DNA of 21,746 nt. It comes from Betaproteobacteria bacterium (GTDB taxonomy: Bacteria; Pseudomonadota; Gammaproteobacteria; Burkholderiales; Usitatibacteraceae). The DNA lies in the NCBI GenBank assembly GCA_012274175.1, contig JAAOZZ010000022.1, positions 1 to 21,746 of the forward strand, written 5' to 3'. Below, in pieces: positions 7,119 through 14,967 of the stretch. The notes below the pieces were generated by a model. The model had not been told where the DNA came from. It saw nothing but the letters and a program-made list of their open reading frames with translations, and made no database searches. Every line of letters begins with the position of its first letter. Position 1 is the stretch's first letter. The position numbers were made by a program, and so were the translations under genes.

Positions 7119-7858
7119 ATTTTTCTGGGATAGCGTCCTTGCAGCTGCCCATTTCATGGGCGACGGCGGGCACCCGTGCGTGGTTCCCGGAAGACTGCAT
7201 GCTTTGCGCGGCGCGTTGTCGCGACGGCCCGGTCTGTCCGCAATGCGCGAGCGCGCTCCCTCGAGCGGGCTACCGCTGCGCCCATTGCGCTTCTCCCCTC
7301 GATCCGGGAGCGCTCTGTTCTACCTGTCGCAGGCGACAATTCGCGTTCGACGATGCGACCGCTTGCTTCGAATACCGGTTTCCCATCGACCGGCTGGTCC
7401 AGCGATACAAGTACGCGGCGGATTTCGCCTGTGGACGGTGGCTCTGCCTCGAGCTCGCGCGATGCGTGGAACGGGAAGCCCGCCCGGACGTGCTCGTCGC
7501 TCCGCCCCTTTCGGCCGAGCGTCTGCGCGAGCGCGGCTTCAACCAGGCGCTCGAGCTCGCGAAGGCGGTCGGAGCGCACCTGGAGATTCGCTGCGATCCC
7601 GCCGCGCTGGCCCGCTTGCGCGATACGCCCGCCCAGGCTGGATTGTCGCGGCGCGAGCGGTTCGCCAACCTGCGCCGGGCCTTCCGGGTGCGGCGTGCGC
7701 TGGATGGCGCCCACGTCGCCATCGTGGACGACGTGCTGACCACCGGCGCGACGGCCGAGGCGATCGCACGGGAGCTCAAGCGCGCGGGCGCGCGGCGCGT
7801 GAGCGTGTGGGCCGTGGCACGGGCGCCCGAACCGGGGAAGCGGCGTTGTTCGAAGTAG
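7097..7858 (+). CDS. comF: ComF-family protein (phosphoribosyltransferase-like)
   Basis: A cytoplasmic protein of the ComF/GntX family, linked in naturally transformable bacteria to uptake of single-stranded DNA. Its N-terminal region carries zinc-finger-type cysteine pairs: CMLC, CPQC, CAHC and CSTC. The C-terminal half is a phosphoribosyltransferase fold with the PRPP-binding motif IVDDVLTTGATA. The RGFNQALELAKAV segment is a family hallmark. The start is unsure: ATG 7097 gives 253 residues, and ATG 7112 is in frame five codons later. The conserved part begins near FPEDCMLC, and neither start has a clear Shine-Dalgarno. The first codons overlap the divergent bioB promoter. The 3' end overlaps trmL by 13 bp. 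Confidence 0.88.
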   Translation: MFLKIMSNFSGIASLQLPISWATAGTRAWFPEDCMLCAARCRDGPVCPQCASALPRAGYRCAHCASPLDPGALCSTCRRRQFAFDDATACFEYRFPIDRLVQRYKYAADFACGRWLCLELARCVEREARPDVLVAPPLSAERLRERGFNQALELAKAVGAHLEIRCDPAALARLRDTPAQAGLSRRERFANLRRAFRVRRALDGAHVAIVDDVLTTGATAEAIARELKRAGARRVSVWAVARAPEPGKRRCSK

Positions 7859-8337
7859 TGCTCTTCCAGCCCGAGATTCCGCCCAATGCGGGCAACGTGA
7901 TCCGGCTCTGCGCCAACGCGGGCGCGCGATTGCACCTCGTGGAGCCCCTGGGCTTCTCGCTCGACGATCGCCGGCTGCGCCGTGCCGGGCTCGACTACCA
8001 CGACCTCGCGACCGTGCTGGTCCACCCCGACTGGGCGCACTGCCTCGAGGCGATCTCGGCGGGCCGGGTCTTCGCAGTCTCGTCTCGAGGCTCGATTCCT
8101 TATACGCAGCCCGTATACCGGCCTGGGGATGCCTTCGTGTTCGGACCCGAGACCGCCGGCCTGCCCCAGGATGTCCTCGAAAGCTTTCCTGCGGCAAATC
8201 GACTACGGCTCCCCATGCGCCCCGGCAATCGCAGCCTCAACCTCTCGAATGCGGTCGCCGTCGTGGTCTTCGAGGCCTGGAGGCAACAGGATTTCGCCGG
8301 CGCCTCCGCTTCCCCTGCCGGCGGCCGACATATATAG
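7846..8337 (+). CDS. trmL: tRNA (cytidine(34)-2'-O)-methyltransferase TrmL
   Basis: A SPOUT-superfamily enzyme of 163 residues that 2'-O-methylates the wobble base of tRNA-Leu isoacceptors. The visible family signatures are NAGNVIRLCANAG near the N-terminus, FGPETAGLP in the middle and NRSLNLSNAVAVVVFE near the C-terminus, which together form the knotted SAM site. The start is TTG at 7846 with GGGGAAG five bases upstream. It opens directly on the MFEVVLFQPEIPPN sequence expected for TrmL and overlaps the comF stop by 13 bp, so it is probably coupled to comF. The next gene lies 242 bp downstream. Confidence 0.93.
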   Translation: MFEVVLFQPEIPPNAGNVIRLCANAGARLHLVEPLGFSLDDRRLRRAGLDYHDLATVLVHPDWAHCLEAISAGRVFAVSSRGSIPYTQPVYRPGDAFVFGPETAGLPQDVLESFPAANRLRLPMRPGNRSLNLSNAVAVVVFEAWRQQDFAGASASPAGGRHI

Positions 8338-8579: not shown

Positions 8580-9197
8580 ATGAATACCAAAACCAAGATC
8601 CTGAAAACCGCCCTCGCGCTGAGCCTGGGTACCGCGCTCGCCGGGGCGATCCCGGCCCATGCCGAGCGGACCACGACGACCGGCGGTGGCGCCCTCAGCA
8701 CCACGGCCCACGTCGACTTCTCGATCGTGATCCCGCGCTTCCTTACCTTCCGCGTGGGCACCGCGTCGGGAACGATCGACCTGATCACGTTCACCGTCCC
8801 GGCGGCCAACGTCGGCGATTCCACGCCGATCGCGGGCACGGGCGGCGACGCCGGAGCCGGTACGGCGGAGAACGTCTCCGTCCTGGGCAACGGCGGCCAG
8901 GTGACGATCACCGAGAGCAACAACAGCGCCGGTGCGGGCCTTGCGCACGCCACCCTCGCCGAGAACATCCCGTACACCGAGATCACGACCACCTCGAGCG
9001 ACACGGCCAACCTGCAGCGTCCGGTCCTGTCGAACGCCGGCGGCAACACCAGCCTGCCGGTCCTCAACTCGGGCAATGTGACGAACCGTTCCGCGACCTG
9101 GACGTACGCGTACGCGAACACGGCGGTCCACTCGGCCGGTACGTACGGTACGAGCGCGAAGGGCGGCCGCGTCACGTATACTGCCTCGATGCCGTAA
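8580..9197 (+). CDS. Exported beta-rich protein, putative surface-fibre subunit (paralogue of the next gene)
   Basis: A 205-residue Sec-exported protein. The signal peptide is clear: MNTKTKILK, a hydrophobic core, then IPAHA with cleavage expected after A28. The mature part is rich in T, G, S, A and N, has no cysteine, and is predicted to be all beta. Features shared with the next gene are an N-terminal V-G-x3-G-T-I segment followed by FTVPAANVG, and the C-terminus SAGTY..GRVTYTASMP, preceded here by ATWTYAYAN. The closing strand resembles the final Ig strand of spore-coat-U and DUF4402 fimbrial subunits. GGAG lies 7 bases before ATG 8580. A strong terminator follows, so this may be the most abundant product of the cluster. 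I recall such proteins as common hypotheticals in proteobacteria; the fibre-subunit role is inferred from fold, export and the chaperone nearby. Confidence 0.8.
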   Translation: MNTKTKILKTALALSLGTALAGAIPAHAERTTTTGGGALSTTAHVDFSIVIPRFLTFRVGTASGTIDLITFTVPAANVGDSTPIAGTGGDAGAGTAENVSVLGNGGQVTITESNNSAGAGLAHATLAENIPYTEITTTSSDTANLQRPVLSNAGGNTSLPVLNSGNVTNRSATWTYAYANTAVHSAGTYGTSAKGGRVTYTASMP

Positions 9198-9221
9198 TCG
9201 CTGGTCGGCGCAGAGAAAAGG

Positions 9222-9254
9222 AAAGCCGGGGTAGCGAAAGCGCCCCGGCTTTTT
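9222..9254 (+). terminator. Rho-independent terminator between the two exported paralogues
   Basis: A perfect 10-bp stem (AAAGCCGGGG 9222-9231, CCCCGGCTTT 9243-9252) encloses an 11-base loop containing GCGAAAGC, itself a very stable mini-hairpin, and runs into a T-tract (9250-9254). It ends only six bases before the ATG of the next gene. Downstream genes must therefore be expressed by read-through or from a promoter not visible here. Confidence 0.88.
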
Positions 9255-9260
9255 GTCTCC

Positions 9261-9839
9261 ATGAAGACATTGCTTCCTCTCCTCCTCCTGGCCGCCCTGG
9301 CTGCTTCCGGGGCGATTGACGCGAATGCCGCGACCGTGGTGATCGGCAACGGCGGCGGGCGCCTGATCCTCCAGGTCGGCAGCACCGGGGGCACGATCAA
9401 CAAGGTCAACTTCAGCATTCCCGGAGCGAGCGTCGGCAACGGCGTCGCCGCATTGAGCTCGAGTGTGACGCCGGCAAGTCCGACCTGCCCCGCCAACACC
9501 GTCCTGATCGACGCCCAGGCGCGTTCCCAGGCCGCCAACCCCAGAACGGCGACATTGACGGCGAACTCCTCCACGCCGCTCACGGCGGGGACGTTCACCA
9601 TCCCGTTTACGCAGGTGTCCTGGTCTTCGTCGACTCCCGGTGGCGGGCCCAACGGATGCCTCAATGCGCCGATCACGATTCCTTCGGGAACCTTCAACGG
9701 TTCCGTGGGGCAGGCGCTCATCACCTTCAATACCTCGAGGCGCGCTTGCGTGTGCGCGCAGTTCAGTTACCTGAACCAGAACGTCGTGTCTGCCGGCACA
9801 TACACCGGGCGGGTCACCTACACGCTCGCGATGCCATGA
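9261..9839 (+). CDS. Exported beta-rich protein with four cysteines, putative minor fibre subunit
   Basis: A 192-residue Sec-exported protein, paralogous to the product of 8580-9197. Signal peptide MKTLLPLLLLAALAASG ends at IDANA with cleavage expected after A23. The mature protein aligns with its neighbour through LQVGSTGGTINKVNFSIPGASVGNG (first 20 residues quoted or fewer: LQVGSTGGTINKVNFSIPG) and the C-terminal SAGTYTGRVTYTLAMP. Unlike the paralogue it has four cysteines (PTCP, NGCL, RACVCA), enough for two disulfides. The ATG lies six bases after a strong terminator and has no Shine-Dalgarno, so expression is probably low, as expected for a minor or capping subunit. Its TGA overlaps the next ATG (ATGA). 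Function is inferred. Confidence 0.78.
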   Translation: MKTLLPLLLLAALAASGAIDANAATVVIGNGGGRLILQVGSTGGTINKVNFSIPGASVGNGVAALSSSVTPASPTCPANTVLIDAQARSQAANPRTATLTANSSTPLTAGTFTIPFTQVSWSSSTPGGGPNGCLNAPITIPSGTFNGSVGQALITFNTSRRACVCAQFSYLNQNVVSAGTYTGRVTYTLAMP

Positions 9840-10321
9840 TCCGCGGAGCGCTCCTGTTCGCCGCCGCCTTCGCTTGCTGCACTTTCGCGGCCGCCTCGAC
9901 GCGCCTGGACGATTCCCTTTCTCCGCGCCAGCGCGTCCAGACCACCACCCACTGGCTCTTCGACGGCACCGGCGACTGGAACGAGGAGCAGATGAACGCC
10001 CTGGTAGCGGACGTGAGCGCCATGGAGTTTCGCCTCCGGACCGCGCCGTATATCGGCAAGAACGCCGAGATCTATCTCACGATTCCGCGCCAGGTCATCG
10101 GGTTGAAGGTGCCCACGGCGATGCGCATCGAATGGAAGACGCGGGGCACCTTCACGCCGGGAACCCTCGTCCCGGGGGATCGCGCACTCGTTTATCGCGG
10201 TAAGATAACGCAATCCGTGATGTCGGATTTCTTCGATTTCCGGATCTTCCTCGACGCACGAACCTCGGAGCGCGGCATTGAGTTCGACCCGGTTTTCGAA
10301 ATCGAAATCGTGGGTTCCTAG
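9836..10321 (+). CDS. Exported protein of unknown function, part of the chaperone cluster
   Basis: A 161-residue protein with a Sec signal peptide (MIRGALLFAAAFACCTFAAA, cleavage probably just after). The two adjacent cysteines lie inside the hydrophobic core and do not make a good lipobox. The mature part has a short amphipathic segment around DWNEEQMNALVADVS, then alternating strands (EIYLTIPRQVIG, MRIEWKTRGTF, ALVYRGKI, FFDFRIFLDAR) and a final strand DPVFEIEIVGS. I recognise no domain with a known function. The start overlaps the preceding stop, and the end overlaps the chaperone start by 44 bp, so it belongs to the same transcript. It could be a tip or adaptor subunit, or a periplasmic assembly factor. 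Confidence 0.75.
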   Translation: MIRGALLFAAAFACCTFAAASTRLDDSLSPRQRVQTTTHWLFDGTGDWNEEQMNALVADVSAMEFRLRTAPYIGKNAEIYLTIPRQVIGLKVPTAMRIEWKTRGTFTPGTLVPGDRALVYRGKITQSVMSDFFDFRIFLDARTSERGIEFDPVFEIEIVGS

Positions 10322-11138
10322 CGGGCTCGCCGCCGTCTCCTCGCTTGTCTTCCTGCTGGCCTCGGCGCAAGCCCATGCCTTCGCGGGCCTGGTGAGCCCC
10401 CCGCGCTTCGAGCTCAAGGCCAAGCCGGGGGAAGTGCTGCGCCAGATCCTCGAGATCGGCAACGACGCGGTGGTGGCCGATGAATTCGCCGTGTCCACCG
10501 CCGACTGGCACCTCAATGCCCAGGGTGGGGTCGAGTTCCACGACACCCTGGATCAAGGAAGCTGCCGGCCGTGGGTGCGCATCGAGCGCCGCACGGTGAA
10601 CATGCAGCCGAAGAGCGTGCGCAAGTTCCGCTTCGAGTTGCACGTGCCCCCGGACGCCGCTCCCCAGGAGTGCCGCTTCGCGATCATCATCGAGCGGGCA
10701 TCCTCGAACGTACCCCAGGTAGAGTCGGGCGGGATCCAGATCCCGTTGCAGGGCCGCATAGGAGTGATCGTCTATGCGGCCGTGGGTGACGTGGCTCCGA
10801 AGCTCGAGCTGCGTTCCGTGGGACTGAAGGAATTCAATGGCCGCCTCACCCCTGCCGCGACGTTCTTCAACAGCGGCACCTCCCACGGCCGGCCGGAAGG
10901 CGTGCTCGAGGGCCGGGACGCGGCGGGAAGCTCGCTGGAATTCGTCGTCTCCTCCCTCCCGATCCTGCCCGGCGAGACGCGCTCGGTCGCGCTGTGGGCC
11001 CAGGAAGGCCCCGACAGGAAGGCTCCCGTGATCGCCTACCCGCTGCGACTGCGCGGGACCATCGAGTGGGACGGCGGAAAGCAGTCCATCGATTCGACGC
11101 TCGCACCCTCGGTCGCGGTCAAGGCCGGATCCTCGTAA
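10278..11138 (+). CDS. Periplasmic two-domain Ig-like pilus-type chaperone
   Basis: A 286-residue exported protein (signal ending in ASAQAHA, cleavage about residue 34). The first domain begins VSPPRFELKAKPGEVLRQ, recalling the PapD-type first strand with its conserved arginine. It continues to the typical VNMQPKSVRKFRFELHVPP stretch before a second Ig-like domain (LPILPGETRSVALW). The pattern also resembles the DUF916/DUF3324 pair of Gram-positive WxL-interacting proteins, so it may be a divergent chaperone rather than a classical FimC/PapD. The start is TTG 10278 with GGAG seven bases upstream; it overlaps the previous gene by 44 bp. No usher gene lies beside it. Its TAA overlaps the convergent barrel gene by 20 bp. 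Confidence 0.72.
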   Translation: MSSTRFSKSKSWVPSGLAAVSSLVFLLASAQAHAFAGLVSPPRFELKAKPGEVLRQILEIGNDAVVADEFAVSTADWHLNAQGGVEFHDTLDQGSCRPWVRIERRTVNMQPKSVRKFRFELHVPPDAAPQECRFAIIIERASSNVPQVESGGIQIPLQGRIGVIVYAAVGDVAPKLELRSVGLKEFNGRLTPAATFFNSGTSHGRPEGVLEGRDAAGSSLEFVVSSLPILPGETRSVALWAQEGPDRKAPVIAYPLRLRGTIEWDGGKQSIDSTLAPSVAVKAGSS

Positions 11139-13476
11139 GCGGGATCTCCACGCTCGCCTCTCCGCGCAGCGGCACATTGGTCACCGGAGGATGGTCTTCG
11201 CTGAAGGTCCAGGGCAGCGGAAGCGACTCGCTGGGAATGCGCAGGGCGTGGCTGCCCGGGGTAACCGCCGGAAAATTGAATCGACCCTGGGGATCGGTCG
11301 TCACCGGGAATCGCCCGTCGAGGTAAACGGTGACGTTGGGCGCTCCCCGTTCCGTCGGTTGGCGCAGCCCGTCGCCGTTGTCGTCGAAGAAGACGATGCC
11401 CGTAAGGCGCCCGCTGCCGGTTCCACCCTGCAAGCCCAACGACTGGTACGGCGTTCCCGAGGCGGCCTCGTATCGCACGCCCAGGAGGAAACGCTTGTCC
11501 CGCTGGACCGGCAGCGCCTCGCTTCCCGGAAGCGGCGGGACGGGATCGAAAGTATTGATGCTGATCTGCGCCAGGGCCGACCAGTTGCGCGCGACCTGCC
11601 ACGTCGCGGTCGCGCTCACGTTGAAGTCGTTCTCGGCGCCCTGGGGGCTTTCGACGCGCCCGTACACCACGCTCGCGTCCCACGATACGTCGCTCAGCGG
11701 CGCGCCGTGCGCGGATAGCCCCAGGCTGGAGCGGCGCGTGCGCACGCCCTGCGCCAGCTCCTGCGAGCGCGTCAGCGTCGAGGTGAGGTGCACCGGCCCA
11801 AGCGGCGGCCAATCCTGGCTCCACGACAGGGTATCGATGTCGTCGTCGGATTGCCCGCTCGCAGTCGCGCGGAATGCGGAAAGATCGAAGCGGCTGAGAC
11901 CCCACGGGTTGTTCCACGACGCGTAGGCGTTGCCGGAAACCGTGGATGCGCGCGGCGAATCGGTGAAGCGGATGCGGGCCTGCTGGTAAGTGATGCCCGC
12001 ACCCACGGAAAGGTTGCGATCGATGCGCAGCGAAAACGTGCCGTAGGCGCTGCCCGAGCGCGTAGCGGCCCTCGACGGATCGTCGCGAATGTTGGTTTGA
12101 CCGAGGTCGGCACCGCCGGACAACGTGTATTTCAGCAACCGGTAGTCGCCCCGCCAGTAGGCTCCGCGCTGGTCGTTGGCGAGTTGCCCGTCGCCCCAGG
12201 CGAGGTTCGGATCGAGCTGGAATGCCCCGAATCGCTGCCGCACGCGCCCGCTGGTCACGTCGCCGTCGAACCATGCGCCGAGATTGGAATCGCTGTCGGC
12301 CACGACCTGCGCCTTGTGGTGGACGAGCGCGCCGATCGTTCCGTATTCGGCCGCTACGCTCGCCGCGTCGTGATCGCGCACCTGCGGGTCTCCCCGCAGG
12401 CTGATGGTCTCGCCGGCCACGCTCCACGCCCCGAAGCGCCGCGTGTAGCCGATTCCCCCCACGGTGCCCGGCGTCGGATCGAATGTCTGGATGGCCGAGC
12501 CCTCGAGCCGCCCGAGGCGGCCGGCGTAAGCGATGAAGGATTGGGAGTTGTCCGAGACGACGGTGGTCGCTCCGGAAAACTGCGAGGTCGGCAGGAAGAT
12601 CCGGTACGACGAATTGATGAGGGAGTTGGGAGGCGTGCGCGCCACGCCCAATACGGAGTCGGCCAGCCACGCTTCGCCGATCGGAAAATGCACCTGGTAG
12701 AGGGTGAAGCTGGCGCCATTGCGGCGCTCGACCGAAGCGTCGCCGGGGGCGGGGCGGGTGTCGCGAACCCCGGCGTCGAGATATAGATCGCCGTAGTTGA
12801 GCGTCTCGCGCCGCAGGTGAATCTGGACGCCCTGTTCGAGCCCGCGACCGCCGCCCGGTGGATCGATCGCCTCCGCGCGGTATTCGGCCGAAATGAAGCG
12901 TCGGCCCGGTACGGACTGCTCCTCCCCGATCGATTCGATGCTTTCCGGCTCTGCGCCTGCGCCCCCGATGAGCTGGTCCACGTAGGGCGCCGCTTCGGGG
13001 GATTTCGGCTTCACGTGCGCCGGCGGATTGGCGTCGAATTCGGGAGTCGCATTCGCTGCGCTCCCTGCCGCGTTCGCGGCGCCGGGCTGCGTCTTCGGCA
13101 CGCCCTGCGCGGCAGGGGCCGAAGTCGCGCCCTCGTCGCGACGGACCAACTCCGGCGGAAGGATGAGGCGCGCGCCCACCCGCAGCCGGTCCCTGTCCCC
13201 GCCCGCGAAGGCTCGAGGATTCCTGGCGAATAGCGCCTCGCTCAGTTGCCGTTCGCGCGCGCGGTCGCCGGGATAGAACTGCCGCGCGATGAGGCGAAAG
13301 TGCTCTCCGCGCTCCACGATCCAATAGCCGCGCGCACGGGCTTCGAGCGCCTTGTGGGCCCGAGCCTGGGCCAGGGATTGGCGGGCCGGAGAAGCATCGC
13401 GCGCCGCCGCGACGGGGGAGACTGCCGTGAGGACCGCCAGAAAAAACCAGACGATCAGGGCGCCTTGTCGCGGCAT
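11119..13476 (-). CDS. Exported LysM-like / beta-barrel / SdrD_B-domain outer-membrane protein
   Basis: A 785-residue protein. Residues 1-24 form a signal peptide (LIVWFFLAVLTAVSPVAA). About 48-105 is a LysM/FimV-like segment (GYWIVERGEHFRLIARQFYP ... LRVGARLILPPE) that could bind peptidoglycan. A Pro/Ala-rich linker follows to about 180. About 185-680 is a long run of alternating beta strands with aromatic ends and D/N/G turns, consistent with a large outer-membrane barrel. Residues 689-785 contain an SdrD_B-like domain with a calcium-type loop DDNGDG. Size is close to an usher, but usher plug and terminal domains are not recognisable. ATG 13476 opens the signal peptide; upstream in-frame sequence to 14493 is antisense to gpsA and is excluded. 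It faces the chaperone gene with a 20-bp 3' overlap. Role as export or anchoring component is inferred. Confidence 0.75.
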   Translation of the reverse strand: MPRQGALIVWFFLAVLTAVSPVAAARDASPARQSLAQARAHKALEARARGYWIVERGEHFRLIARQFYPGDRARERQLSEALFARNPRAFAGGDRDRLRVGARLILPPELVRRDEGATSAPAAQGVPKTQPGAANAAGSAANATPEFDANPPAHVKPKSPEAAPYVDQLIGGAGAEPESIESIGEEQSVPGRRFISAEYRAEAIDPPGGGRGLEQGVQIHLRRETLNYGDLYLDAGVRDTRPAPGDASVERRNGASFTLYQVHFPIGEAWLADSVLGVARTPPNSLINSSYRIFLPTSQFSGATTVVSDNSQSFIAYAGRLGRLEGSAIQTFDPTPGTVGGIGYTRRFGAWSVAGETISLRGDPQVRDHDAASVAAEYGTIGALVHHKAQVVADSDSNLGAWFDGDVTSGRVRQRFGAFQLDPNLAWGDGQLANDQRGAYWRGDYRLLKYTLSGGADLGQTNIRDDPSRAATRSGSAYGTFSLRIDRNLSVGAGITYQQARIRFTDSPRASTVSGNAYASWNNPWGLSRFDLSAFRATASGQSDDDIDTLSWSQDWPPLGPVHLTSTLTRSQELAQGVRTRRSSLGLSAHGAPLSDVSWDASVVYGRVESPQGAENDFNVSATATWQVARNWSALAQISINTFDPVPPLPGSEALPVQRDKRFLLGVRYEAASGTPYQSLGLQGGTGSGRLTGIVFFDDNGDGLRQPTERGAPNVTVYLDGRFPVTTDPQGRFNFPAVTPGSHALRIPSESLPLPWTFSEDHPPVTNVPLRGEASVEIPLTRIRP

Positions 13477-13541: not shown

Positions 13542-14522
13542 CTACTCCGAGCGGGGATCCCGGGTGAGGAGCCGCTCGACCGCTTCCCCGGGCGCGACGC
13601 CCTCGAACAGCACGGCGCACACCGCTTCGGTGATGGGCATTTCGACACGCCGCTCCCGTGCGAGGCCGCGCACGGCGCGCGCCGACTGCACGCCTTCGGC
13701 CACGTGGCCCAGGCTCGTGAGGACGTCGTCGAGCGCCCGGCCGCGGGCGAGCCCGATTCCCACCTCGCGATTGCGCGAAAGGTCGCCGGTGCAGGTGAGC
13801 ACCAGGTCGCCCACGCCCGCGAGCCCCATGAACGTTTCGGCCTGGCCGCCGAGCGCTACCCCCAATCTCACGATCTCCGCGAGGCCTCGCGTGACGAGCG
13901 CCGCGCGGGCGTTGCGGCCGAGCGCCAGGCCGTCGGCGATCCCGGCCGCGATCGCGATCACGTTCTTCACCGCGCCCCCCAGCACCACGCCCACGACGTC
14001 GTTGCTCGAGTACAGGCGCAGCCGCGGGGAATTGAGCGCGGCGGCGATCGTCGCGGCGAACCCCGGCTCGCGCGACGCGATCACGAGCGCGGTGGGCAGC
14101 CCTTGGGCGACTTCGAGCGCGAAACTCGGACCCGATAAGGCGCCCACGCGGCGGGCATCGGGAAGCGCGCGCTCGGCGATCTCGTGGGGCATGCGGCTCG
14201 TCGCGGCGTCGAAACCCTTGCAGGCCCAGACGAGCGAGGGTTGCGGCATCCACGCGCCCACCGCCTCGAGCGTGTGGCGCAATCCCGAGGTCGAGGTGGC
14301 CACGATCACCAGGCCGGCGCTTTCGAGCGCCTTGCGCAGGTCCGCTTCGACGGCGATCCGCGCGGGCAGGCGGGACTGGGGAAGATACCGGCTGGAGCGG
14401 CTGTGGGCGGTGGCCTCGCATGCGGCCCGGTCGCGCGACCACAGGCGCACCTCGTGAGTCGGCGCGAGCGCGATCGCGAGTGCCGATCCCCACGCTCCCG
14501 CGCCGAGGATGGCGATTCTCAC
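13542..14522 (-). CDS. gpsA: NAD(P)-dependent glycerol-3-phosphate dehydrogenase GpsA
   Basis: GpsA reduces dihydroxyacetone phosphate to sn-glycerol 3-phosphate, the backbone precursor of phospholipids. The 326-residue protein has the N-terminal dinucleotide-binding motif GAGAWGSA at 7-14, the CKGF segment with K102, the SGPSFALEVAQG block at about 130-141, and the catalytic lysine K186 in GGAVKNVIAIAAG. The GLAGVGDLVLTCTG segment is also typical. The start is GTG (14520-14522), four bases after the SH3 gene stop, because homologues begin MxIAILGAGAWG. It is the last gene of the rhodanese-grxC-secB-SH3-gpsA run on this strand. Co-occurrence of secB and gpsA is common in proteobacteria. Confidence 0.95.
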   Translation of the reverse strand: MRIAILGAGAWGSALAIALAPTHEVRLWSRDRAACEATAHSRSSRYLPQSRLPARIAVEADLRKALESAGLVIVATSTSGLRHTLEAVGAWMPQPSLVWACKGFDAATSRMPHEIAERALPDARRVGALSGPSFALEVAQGLPTALVIASREPGFAATIAAALNSPRLRLYSSNDVVGVVLGGAVKNVIAIAAGIADGLALGRNARAALVTRGLAEIVRLGVALGGQAETFMGLAGVGDLVLTCTGDLSRNREVGIGLARGRALDDVLTSLGHVAEGVQSARAVRGLARERRVEMPITEAVCAVLFEGVAPGEAVERLLTRDPRSE

Positions 14523-14526
14523 CGGG

Positions 14527-14967
14527 TCACGCGCCCCAGACTTGCGAGAGTCGGATGTAGCCCTGCTGCCCGTCGCGGTGGCGCACCTTGACCCAGCCGT
14601 CGGCCGGGGGTTCGACCACCTCCAGCAGCACCTGCTTGTAGGCCTCGAAGACCAGGGGGGATTGCGTGCTCGCGTTCGCATGCACGTCGGCGAGGGGGAC
14701 GGTGACGACTACTGTCCGTAGGTCGCCCAAGGCCCCGTTGTCCACCCAGGCGACTTCGCCGTTCACGTCGCGCACCTTGGTCCACTGGTCGAGCTTCACC
14801 AGGACCTCGAACGGATAGTGGCGGGTGGCGACGAAGAGGCGATCGGCCTTCGCCGAAGGTGCGTCGTAGAGGATCGCGGGCCGGTCACCCAGGGAGCGGT
14901 ACTCGGCGGCGAGCGCGCTCGCGGCGGCGAGCGCGAGGAGGGCGACGCAAGCGCTCGCGGCTCTCAC
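14527..14967 (-). CDS. Exported SH3-domain protein
   Basis: A 146-residue protein with a signal peptide (GTG start, CVALLALAAASALA, cleavage near residue 20) followed by two bacterial SH3-like repeats: RPAILYDAPSAKADRLFVAT to VAWVDNG, and then VHANASTQSPLVFEAY to QQGYIRLSQVWG. Such domains in periplasmic proteins usually bind cell-wall peptides, often to localise other activities; here there is no catalytic domain. GTG 14967 is chosen because it begins the signal peptide and lies five bases past the secB stop. It sits between secB and gpsA with gaps of 4 bp, so it is part of that transcript. Exact role unknown. Confidence 0.85.
   Translation of the reverse strand: MRAASACVALLALAAASALAAEYRSLGDRPAILYDAPSAKADRLFVATRHYPFEVLVKLDQWTKVRDVNGEVAWVDNGALGDLRTVVVTVPLADVHANASTQSPLVFEAYKQVLLEVVEPPADGWVKVRHRDGQQGYIRLSQVWGA

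Follow-up and report, generated by a model that had tools for sequence, protein, structure and literature searches.

The described systems closest to the locus studied here are the archaic chaperone-usher pathway (Csu of Acinetobacter, CupE, SCPU-type) and the classical and alternative chaperone-usher pathways (Fim/Pap; Ecp, CFA/I), with the WxL/WxLIP clusters of Gram-positives as a further comparison. Known ushers have five domains (an N-terminal domain, NTD; a 24-strand barrel; a plug; and two C-terminal domains, CTD1 and CTD2), as given in the available part of PMC8410936, and in classical systems it is chiefly by an N-terminal tail and surface residues that the NTD holds on to the chaperone (PMC9452303, available part). 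The locus lies in the window, i.e., the whole stretch of DNA that was analysed, a complete contig of 21,746 nucleotides (JAAOZZ010000022.1) from a betaproteobacterial draft genome (GCA_012274175.1, family Usitatibacteraceae; 3.1 Mb, 81% complete). It consists of four plus-strand genes in the order sub1-sub2-unk3-chaperone (8580-11138) and a convergent barrel gene (11119-13476). We conclude that the products of this locus very probably make up a chaperone-usher pathway that has diverged far from the known ones and has a reduced usher. The initial annotation had proposed an undescribed system; searches of the open-licence PMC literature (listings and abstracts) turned up no account of the five-gene module, or of an usher lacking plug or NTD, and the module is best regarded as a branch of the chaperone-usher pathway, not a new kind of system.

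The archaic pathway provides the nearest chaperones and ushers by profile (from related genomes). It shares with the module the gene order subunits-chaperone-usher, and the module chaperone keeps two arginines of the archaic, non-classical carboxylate anchor. The differences are that the module subunits are not SCPU proteins and have no convincing SCPU match, that its predicted usher has no NTD, plug or CTD2, that the anchor tyrosine of the chaperone has become a proline, and that the third product, unk3, has no known counterpart. As for the classical and alternative pathways, the predicted fold of sub1 resembles those of FimA, the PapG pilin domain and CfaB, and the predicted fold of the barrel resembles FimD and PapC; in contrast, no profile match to these pathways was obtained for the chaperone (EcpB alone included), the usher or the pilins, and the module usher is reduced. 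WxL/WxLIP clusters likewise combine two surface subunits with one two-domain Ig-like (immunoglobulin-like) partner, to which the module chaperone shows weak similarity, but the module has no WxL domain or family-level match and does have an outer-membrane usher-like barrel.

All five open reading frames (ORFs) were confirmed, with a hydrophobic N-terminal signal sequence in each of the five products (judged by eye), so that the four exported plus-strand products and the convergent barrel gene stand as first described. The sub2 and unk3 genes overlap by 4 bases, and the barrel and chaperone genes overlap tail to tail by 20 bases; the chaperone start was set at a TTG because the 86%-identical homologue P0036 begins there. 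The only Pfam/NCBIfam matches within the five genes are an SdrD_B-like end and a weak LysM/FimV domain, both in the barrel protein, and the named barrel and subunit homologues among the matches listed are all called 'hypothetical protein'. Three homologues (P0012, P0107 and P0197) come from Usitatibacter. We note that ORFs were called mechanically, so many rows begin upstream of the true start (alignments A1, A2 and A3, and the locus ORFs).

The chaperone was found in 16 of 41 related genomes, at 18 places, and by tblastn sub2, unk3 and the barrel adjoin it at all 17 places besides that of the window; sub1 is also present unless the contig begins there, with two or three copies at some loci (three in L021). 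Barrel matches above 200 bits occur in exactly the 16 chaperone-bearing relatives and in 0 of the 25 others (in G020 the barrel gene is split across contig ends). In two genomes a pair of complete modules lies in tandem, and the barrel is convergent in one module and co-directional in the other. Loci in named genomes were chosen by chaperone patterns alone; 80 of 149 confirmed loci were counted, and a barrel was counted if it scored >150 bits and lay at most 1 kb from the chaperone. Seventy-seven of these 80 loci have a barrel adjacent to the chaperone (67 on the same strand, 10 convergent), 78 have unk3 and 75 have sub2; sub1 is present in two copies in 11 of the 80. No adjacent barrel was counted for L076, where none was found, for L118, where it lies upstream, and for L120, which reaches a contig end.

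Carriers include Variovorax, Hydrogenophaga, Polaromonas, Novosphingobium, Pseudotabrizicola, Thiothrix, Steroidobacteraceae and many environmental Beta- and Gammaproteobacterial drafts; the Variovorax, Hydrogenophaga and Novosphingobium among them are cultured. The spread is patchy, with a chaperone match in 9 of 300 genomes of the order and in 8 of 398 of the phylum. Three of the phylum matches are strong and come with a barrel; five are weak (E 5.6e-8 to 1.9e-20), with no barrel at E 1e-30 in their genomes and none in the four weak-match loci inspected (all but that of G525). In the chaperone tree, 11 rows with convergent and 68 with co-directional barrels are parted by a single change (support 96/82; 5 rows belong to neither group), as compared to a mean of 10.5 changes after shuffling, and 0 of 500 shuffles were as low. 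The tree thus splits by barrel orientation with one change, which indicates that chaperone and barrel travelled together. The five-gene arrangement is a conserved module, far beyond chance, as had been supposed when it was read as one system.

The neighbourhood survey also bore out that the genes co-occur consistently without a recognised usher: a local usher profile gave 0 matches in the 80 named loci at E 1e-3, and 0 of 43 barrel proteins match PF00577 at E 1. A PF00577 usher is found in 15 of the 41 relatives, and none was found in 10 of the 16 that bear the module. Among these usher-free carriers, G004 (assembled as one contig) and G034 are rated 100% complete, and G009 and G015 99%; the remaining six are drafts rated only 80-93%, so the missing usher counts for less there. 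A classical usher conserved beside the cluster was found in form only, in two relatives (G003 and G010), where a separate SCPU/PapD_N/Usher operon lies directly beside the module and the usher belongs to that other operon. The neighbouring usher in G003 bears the same LysM domain as the barrel protein of the window, a sign of parts moving between neighbouring fibre systems.

The barrel gene (11119..13476, minus strand) encodes a predicted usher-like outer-membrane protein of 785 aa. Its AlphaFold2 model (from the 43-row alignment A1, mean pLDDT 78) begins with a LysM-like domain and a disordered tail, continues with 26 strands and ends in a single Ig-like domain; of 33 barrel proteins, A1 took 27 beside the window's P0001, with P0018, P0021, P0023, P0025 and P0032 excluded. 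According to Foldseek, PDB ranks 1-15 for this model are all FimD or PapC (best E 7.3e-15; the next unrelated entry has 1.4e-8), with TM-scores that are low (0.29-0.38 by query length), and among the 50 rows returned by VIA it is PapC that has the lowest rmsd and the longest alignment. Profile comparison by hhalign with archaic ushers gave 92.8 (local) and 93.0 (global), confident mainly over the C-terminal 220 columns (last strands and C-terminal domain), with 0.5 for the reversed control. Co-directional barrels are nearer to archaic ushers than window-type barrels are (91.9 vs 1.9); the latter taken alone (33 rows) reached 42.9 once in six usher comparisons (local, mixed set) and at most 1.9 in the other five.

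The five-domain plan of known ushers was not found in these barrels when strand and segment lengths were examined: plug, NTD and CTD2 appear to be missing and one CTD-like domain is left. In the predicted 26-strand barrel (residues 193-673; 11458..12900) the longest inter-strand segment is 34 aa (42 to 123 members per loop), and with no insert of at least 50 residues a plug could not be accommodated. The stretch ahead of the first strand can be as short as 57 residues with the signal peptide counted (median 83 in 68 co-directional barrels, many of whose starts are over-extended), which leaves no room for an NTD; the 192 residues found there in the window barrel are the LysM and the disordered tail. 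Behind the last strand the median length is 111 residues, enough for one C-terminal domain. In the window this is the Ig-like, SdrD_B-like domain at 11122..11412 (Pfam E 4.7e-5, under the curated cut-off), which agrees with the barrel end as first annotated and, by profile comparison, would be the counterpart of CTD1. Judged by model and profiles, then, the barrel is a highly diverged, reduced usher homologue in the usher role that had been suggested for it. The claim that no usher is present holds in that Pfam recognises none; since the barrel is itself a reduced usher, the usher has been replaced rather than lost.

Ahead of the barrel domain, the disordered tail contains a YVDQLIGG motif (residues 165-172; 12961..12984) whose Y165 and D167 are invariant in the 43 barrel rows; 74 of 80 barrel ORFs show a loose [YF]-x-D-x-x-[ILMV] pattern within their first 400 residues. 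Since the classical NTD binds the chaperone by its N-terminal tail, this Y-x-D tail is a candidate docking site. The LysM-like domain (about residues 50-108; 13153..13329) matches FimV_core of NCBIfam at E 3.3e-4, under the curated cut-off, and is modelled as beta-alpha-alpha-beta. A wall-binding-like N-terminus had been noted for the barrel protein, and the weak LysM match agrees with it, but the domain is not general: 3 of the 10 convergent barrels carry it and none of the 70 co-directional ones does, and by this distribution LysM is evidently an addition in the lineage of the window, outside the core of the system.

Two proteins outside the module are of interest for comparison with the barrel. 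The PF00577 usher of a neighbouring SCPU operon (L021:12752-15751) has the same N-terminal FimV-like LysM as the window's barrel (E 3.6e-19); unlike the latter, it has PF00577 and the PapC C-terminal domain, is 999 aa long and belongs to its own SCPU/PapD_N operon. On contig C269 of G007, an usher match and an N-terminal match to the barrel profile fall in one open frame of 955 aa.

Some results weigh against the reading of the locus as a chaperone-usher pathway: VIA places porins above PapC for the barrel model, the barrel profile shows no match to classical ushers alone (hhalign 6.5), and the sub1 model discussed below gave weak Foldseek scores, with no match at E <0.001. The first of these points to a different view, in which the barrel is a porin, an adhesin or an anchor like an inverse autotransporter, and the subunits rely on a classical usher whose gene lies at another place in the genome. 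The inverse autotransporter YeeJ reportedly combines LysM, barrel and Ig domain, a plan that the barrel protein recalls, and separate SCPU/PapD/usher operons adjoin the module in G003 and G010. We nevertheless consider this view very unlikely: it conflicts with the missing PF00577 in 10 of 16 module genomes (among them the two rated 100% complete), with the ushers that head the Foldseek list, with the profile homology to archaic ushers, and with the one history that chaperone and barrel arrangements share in the tree.

The chaperone (10278..11138, plus strand) was annotated from the start as Ig-like, and its relationship can now be stated more closely. Its profile matches archaic PapD-type chaperones of related genomes over the full length with hhalign probability 97.0-97.2 (reversed-profile control 0.1), and one of these reference archaic chaperones matches CsuC at E 9.8e-8. 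Classical chaperones (1.3-3.5) and EcpB alone (4.5) do not match the profile, and PF00345, PF00577 and PF05229 gave no match at E 1 in the module alignments scanned. Chaperone homologues in JGI/UniRef are partly named 'fimbrial chaperone protein' or 'Pili assembly chaperone N-terminal domain'. By these comparisons the protein is a diverged periplasmic member of the PapD superfamily, a remote homologue of archaic chaperones below Pfam detection. For alignment A2, 17 chaperones were taken among the best 120 of 2509 matches; rows L027 and L028 are short at the N-terminus and P0087 apparently has a frameshifted stretch.

Eight residues (F26, P32, R34, C87, R109, C123, N189 and R196) are invariant in all 84 chaperone rows, and R124 is found in 83. 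In two MAFFT alignments, with the mature EcpB numbering checked, R124 corresponds to Arg89 of EcpB, R196 to Arg148 and P219 to Tyr169. Arg89 and Arg148 are residues of the non-classical carboxylate anchor, according to the available part of PMC4654587. The anchor tyrosine (Tyr196 of CsuC, Tyr169 of EcpB) is present in all five non-classical references and is replaced here, by proline in 82 of 84 rows; with R124 and R196 kept, two of three anchor residues are retained. R124 is shifted by two columns as compared to the archaic rows, whose own arginine matches Arg89 of CsuC, so the exact register is a judgement. R109 was also tried as the counterpart of CsuC Arg89 and rejected, as the CsuC alignment, MAFFT and the EcpB numbering favour R124. 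The classical PapD basic pair, which we take to be Arg8/Lys112, could be sought in the conserved R34 (84/84) and R151 (78/84). These two were not used as evidence for it because archaic chaperones are described as having no analogues of that pair (PMC4654587, available part).

The same chaperone profile raises the possibility of a Gram-negative WxL/WxLIP counterpart, with the PapD-like protein as a permanent partner, the barrel as a mere anchor and no fibre. The only PDB sequence matches of the profile are to EfmWxLIP1 (E 0.003), and WxLIP_PGBD (PF06030) matches 14 of 31 chaperone members weakly (best E 0.011). WxL clusters likewise pair two WxL proteins with a single Ig protein of two domains, one strand of which (WxLIP) is predicted to be inserted into the WxL protein (PMC10599100, in the part available). 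However, no chaperone member reaches E 0.001 against PF06030, which has 0 matches in the window's genome (two controls positive); the WxL domain (PF13731) matches 0 of 33 subunits at E 1 and has 0 matches in the window's genome (Lactococcus control positive). The match to archaic chaperones (97) is far stronger than that to WxLIP, the barrel is usher-like and almost always adjoins the chaperone, and the WxL partner carries a membrane helix (PMC10599100, same part), whereas none is seen by eye at the end of the window's chaperone. We regard such a counterpart as scarcely likely.

The two subunits sub1 (8580..9197) and sub2 (9261..9839), both on the plus strand, are paralogous as first annotated, with a profile-profile (hhalign) probability of 99.4-99.5, and both are likely fibre subunits. 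For the AlphaFold2 model of sub1 (pLDDT 89.5), the Foldseek list is headed by pilins of chaperone-usher systems, which fill ranks 1-13 (E 0.013-0.19, probability up to 0.96), and by manual count 38 of the 50 rows from VIA are subunits or adhesins of such systems. SCPU (PF05229) matches 0 of 33 subunits at E 1; hhalign against SCPU gave 0.3-23, over 8 to 26 columns only, and the classical pilin profiles do not match (5.2 for sub1, 20.4 for sub2). For alignment A5, 46 subunits were taken among the best 120 of 1971 matches; in A4, row L022 is mostly out of frame and rows L030-L033 were removed.

Sub1 has an N-terminal extension (residues 41-51; 8700..8732) in which, among 147 rows, residues 45, 47, 49 and 51 are strongly hydrophobic in 96-100%, residues 44, 46 and 48 in 0-3% and residue 50 in 56%. 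This stretch is found in 18 of 18 sub1 rows and in 0 of 15 sub2 rows. Sub1 is thus predicted to combine a pilin-like fold with a donor-strand-like extension that is missing from sub2, which would make sub1 the major (rod) subunit and sub2 the tip or first subunit. The residue count after the A-x-A site was discarded as a measure, as a conserved alanine inside the extension misleads.

The junction between sub1 and sub2 contains a terminator-like hairpin (9220..9254), GC-rich with a T run (z -3.58; minimum free energy -32.2 for 9198-9262), which is an attenuator candidate. Hairpins of -20 kcal/mol or lower follow sub1 in 11 of 67 junctions from other loci vs 7 of 1340 dinucleotide shuffles; at the laxer -10 kcal/mol the counts are 16 of 67 and 135 of 1340. 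A scan for consensus terminators (5 sites vs a shuffled mean of 3.3) did not list the hairpin. In part of the family, the hairpins are in keeping with partial termination downstream of a major subunit that is made in abundance. The donor-strand-like extension, the sub1 duplications in some loci, this strong hairpin and the usher-like barrel pore make it the least probable of the alternatives that the products form a periplasmic or outer-membrane-bound scaffold, i.e., pilin-like proteins capping the barrel or tying it to peptidoglycan, for which speak the LysM in the window's genus and the fact that Pfam and NCBIfam find no recognisable adhesin or lectin domain in any of the five products.

The remaining gene, unk3 (9836..10321, plus strand), encodes an exported product kept between sub2 and the chaperone, for which profile searches gave no credible Pfam or PDB match. 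Pilin, chaperone and usher domains were all rejected as identities for it (hhalign <8 against all). Among the 80 named loci it was not detected in the Thiotrichaceae variants L118 and L120, which counts against a general role.

Read as a diverged chaperone-usher pathway, the five genes most likely produce a hair-like fibre on the cell surface; fibre formation itself is inferred. Sub1, sub2 and unk3 would reach the periplasm by Sec, where the two-domain chaperone would lend one of its strands to complete the open Ig folds of the two subunits sub1 and sub2, its buried arginine holding the conserved C-terminal end of the subunit. The complexes may then dock at the barrel via its Y-x-D N-terminal tail and its single C-terminal Ig domain. 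Having no donor strand, sub2 would go first, on the tip side, and sub1 would then polymerise by donor-strand exchange as the fibre exits through the barrel. In the window's genus, LysM may pin the barrel to peptidoglycan.

We think it quite possible, though short of probable, that a widespread branch of the pathway secretes its fibre with an usher made of a pore and one Ig domain, with no plug gate, folded recruitment domain or CTD2. Recruitment would then be by the Y-x-D tail of ~30 residues and gating by the subunits or by unk3, which might act in trans as plug or tip. Fimbria surveys based on the Pfam usher, PapD and SCPU families would miss the module. If plug, NTD and CTD2 are truly missing from the usher, it tells us what the best-studied machine for pilus secretion can do without, and such a natural minimal system would make subunit recruitment by ushers and pore gating testable.

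Variants of the module were also seen. The Thiotrichaceae loci L118 (5115-9960) and L120 have another gene order (barrel-sub1-chap-sub2-sub1 in L118). In Polaromonas JS666 (L076:8741-14150) the subunits, unk3 and the chaperone are kept, and a two-partner-secretion-like pair (by eye) takes the place of the adjoining barrel. More distant genomes of the phylum encode chaperone-like proteins (L133:7865-8893, L134:7714-8562 and L135:7226-8254), with no profile match to other module genes within the 16 kb inspected. At L136 (3989-9075), a distant chaperone-like gene lies beside a pilin-like gene (by eye), and an ORF matches the local usher profile weakly (E 1.5e-4); this locus is possibly an intermediate between archaic systems and the five-gene module. 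One chaperone homologue (P0112) bears a SPOR domain (PF05036), which suggests another peptidoglycan-linked variant. In several relatives, fibre modules, and in some cases two systems, lie in the gap between the trmL-like gene and gpsA (7858-8337 and 13542-14528 in the window), which is possibly a hot spot for surface systems.

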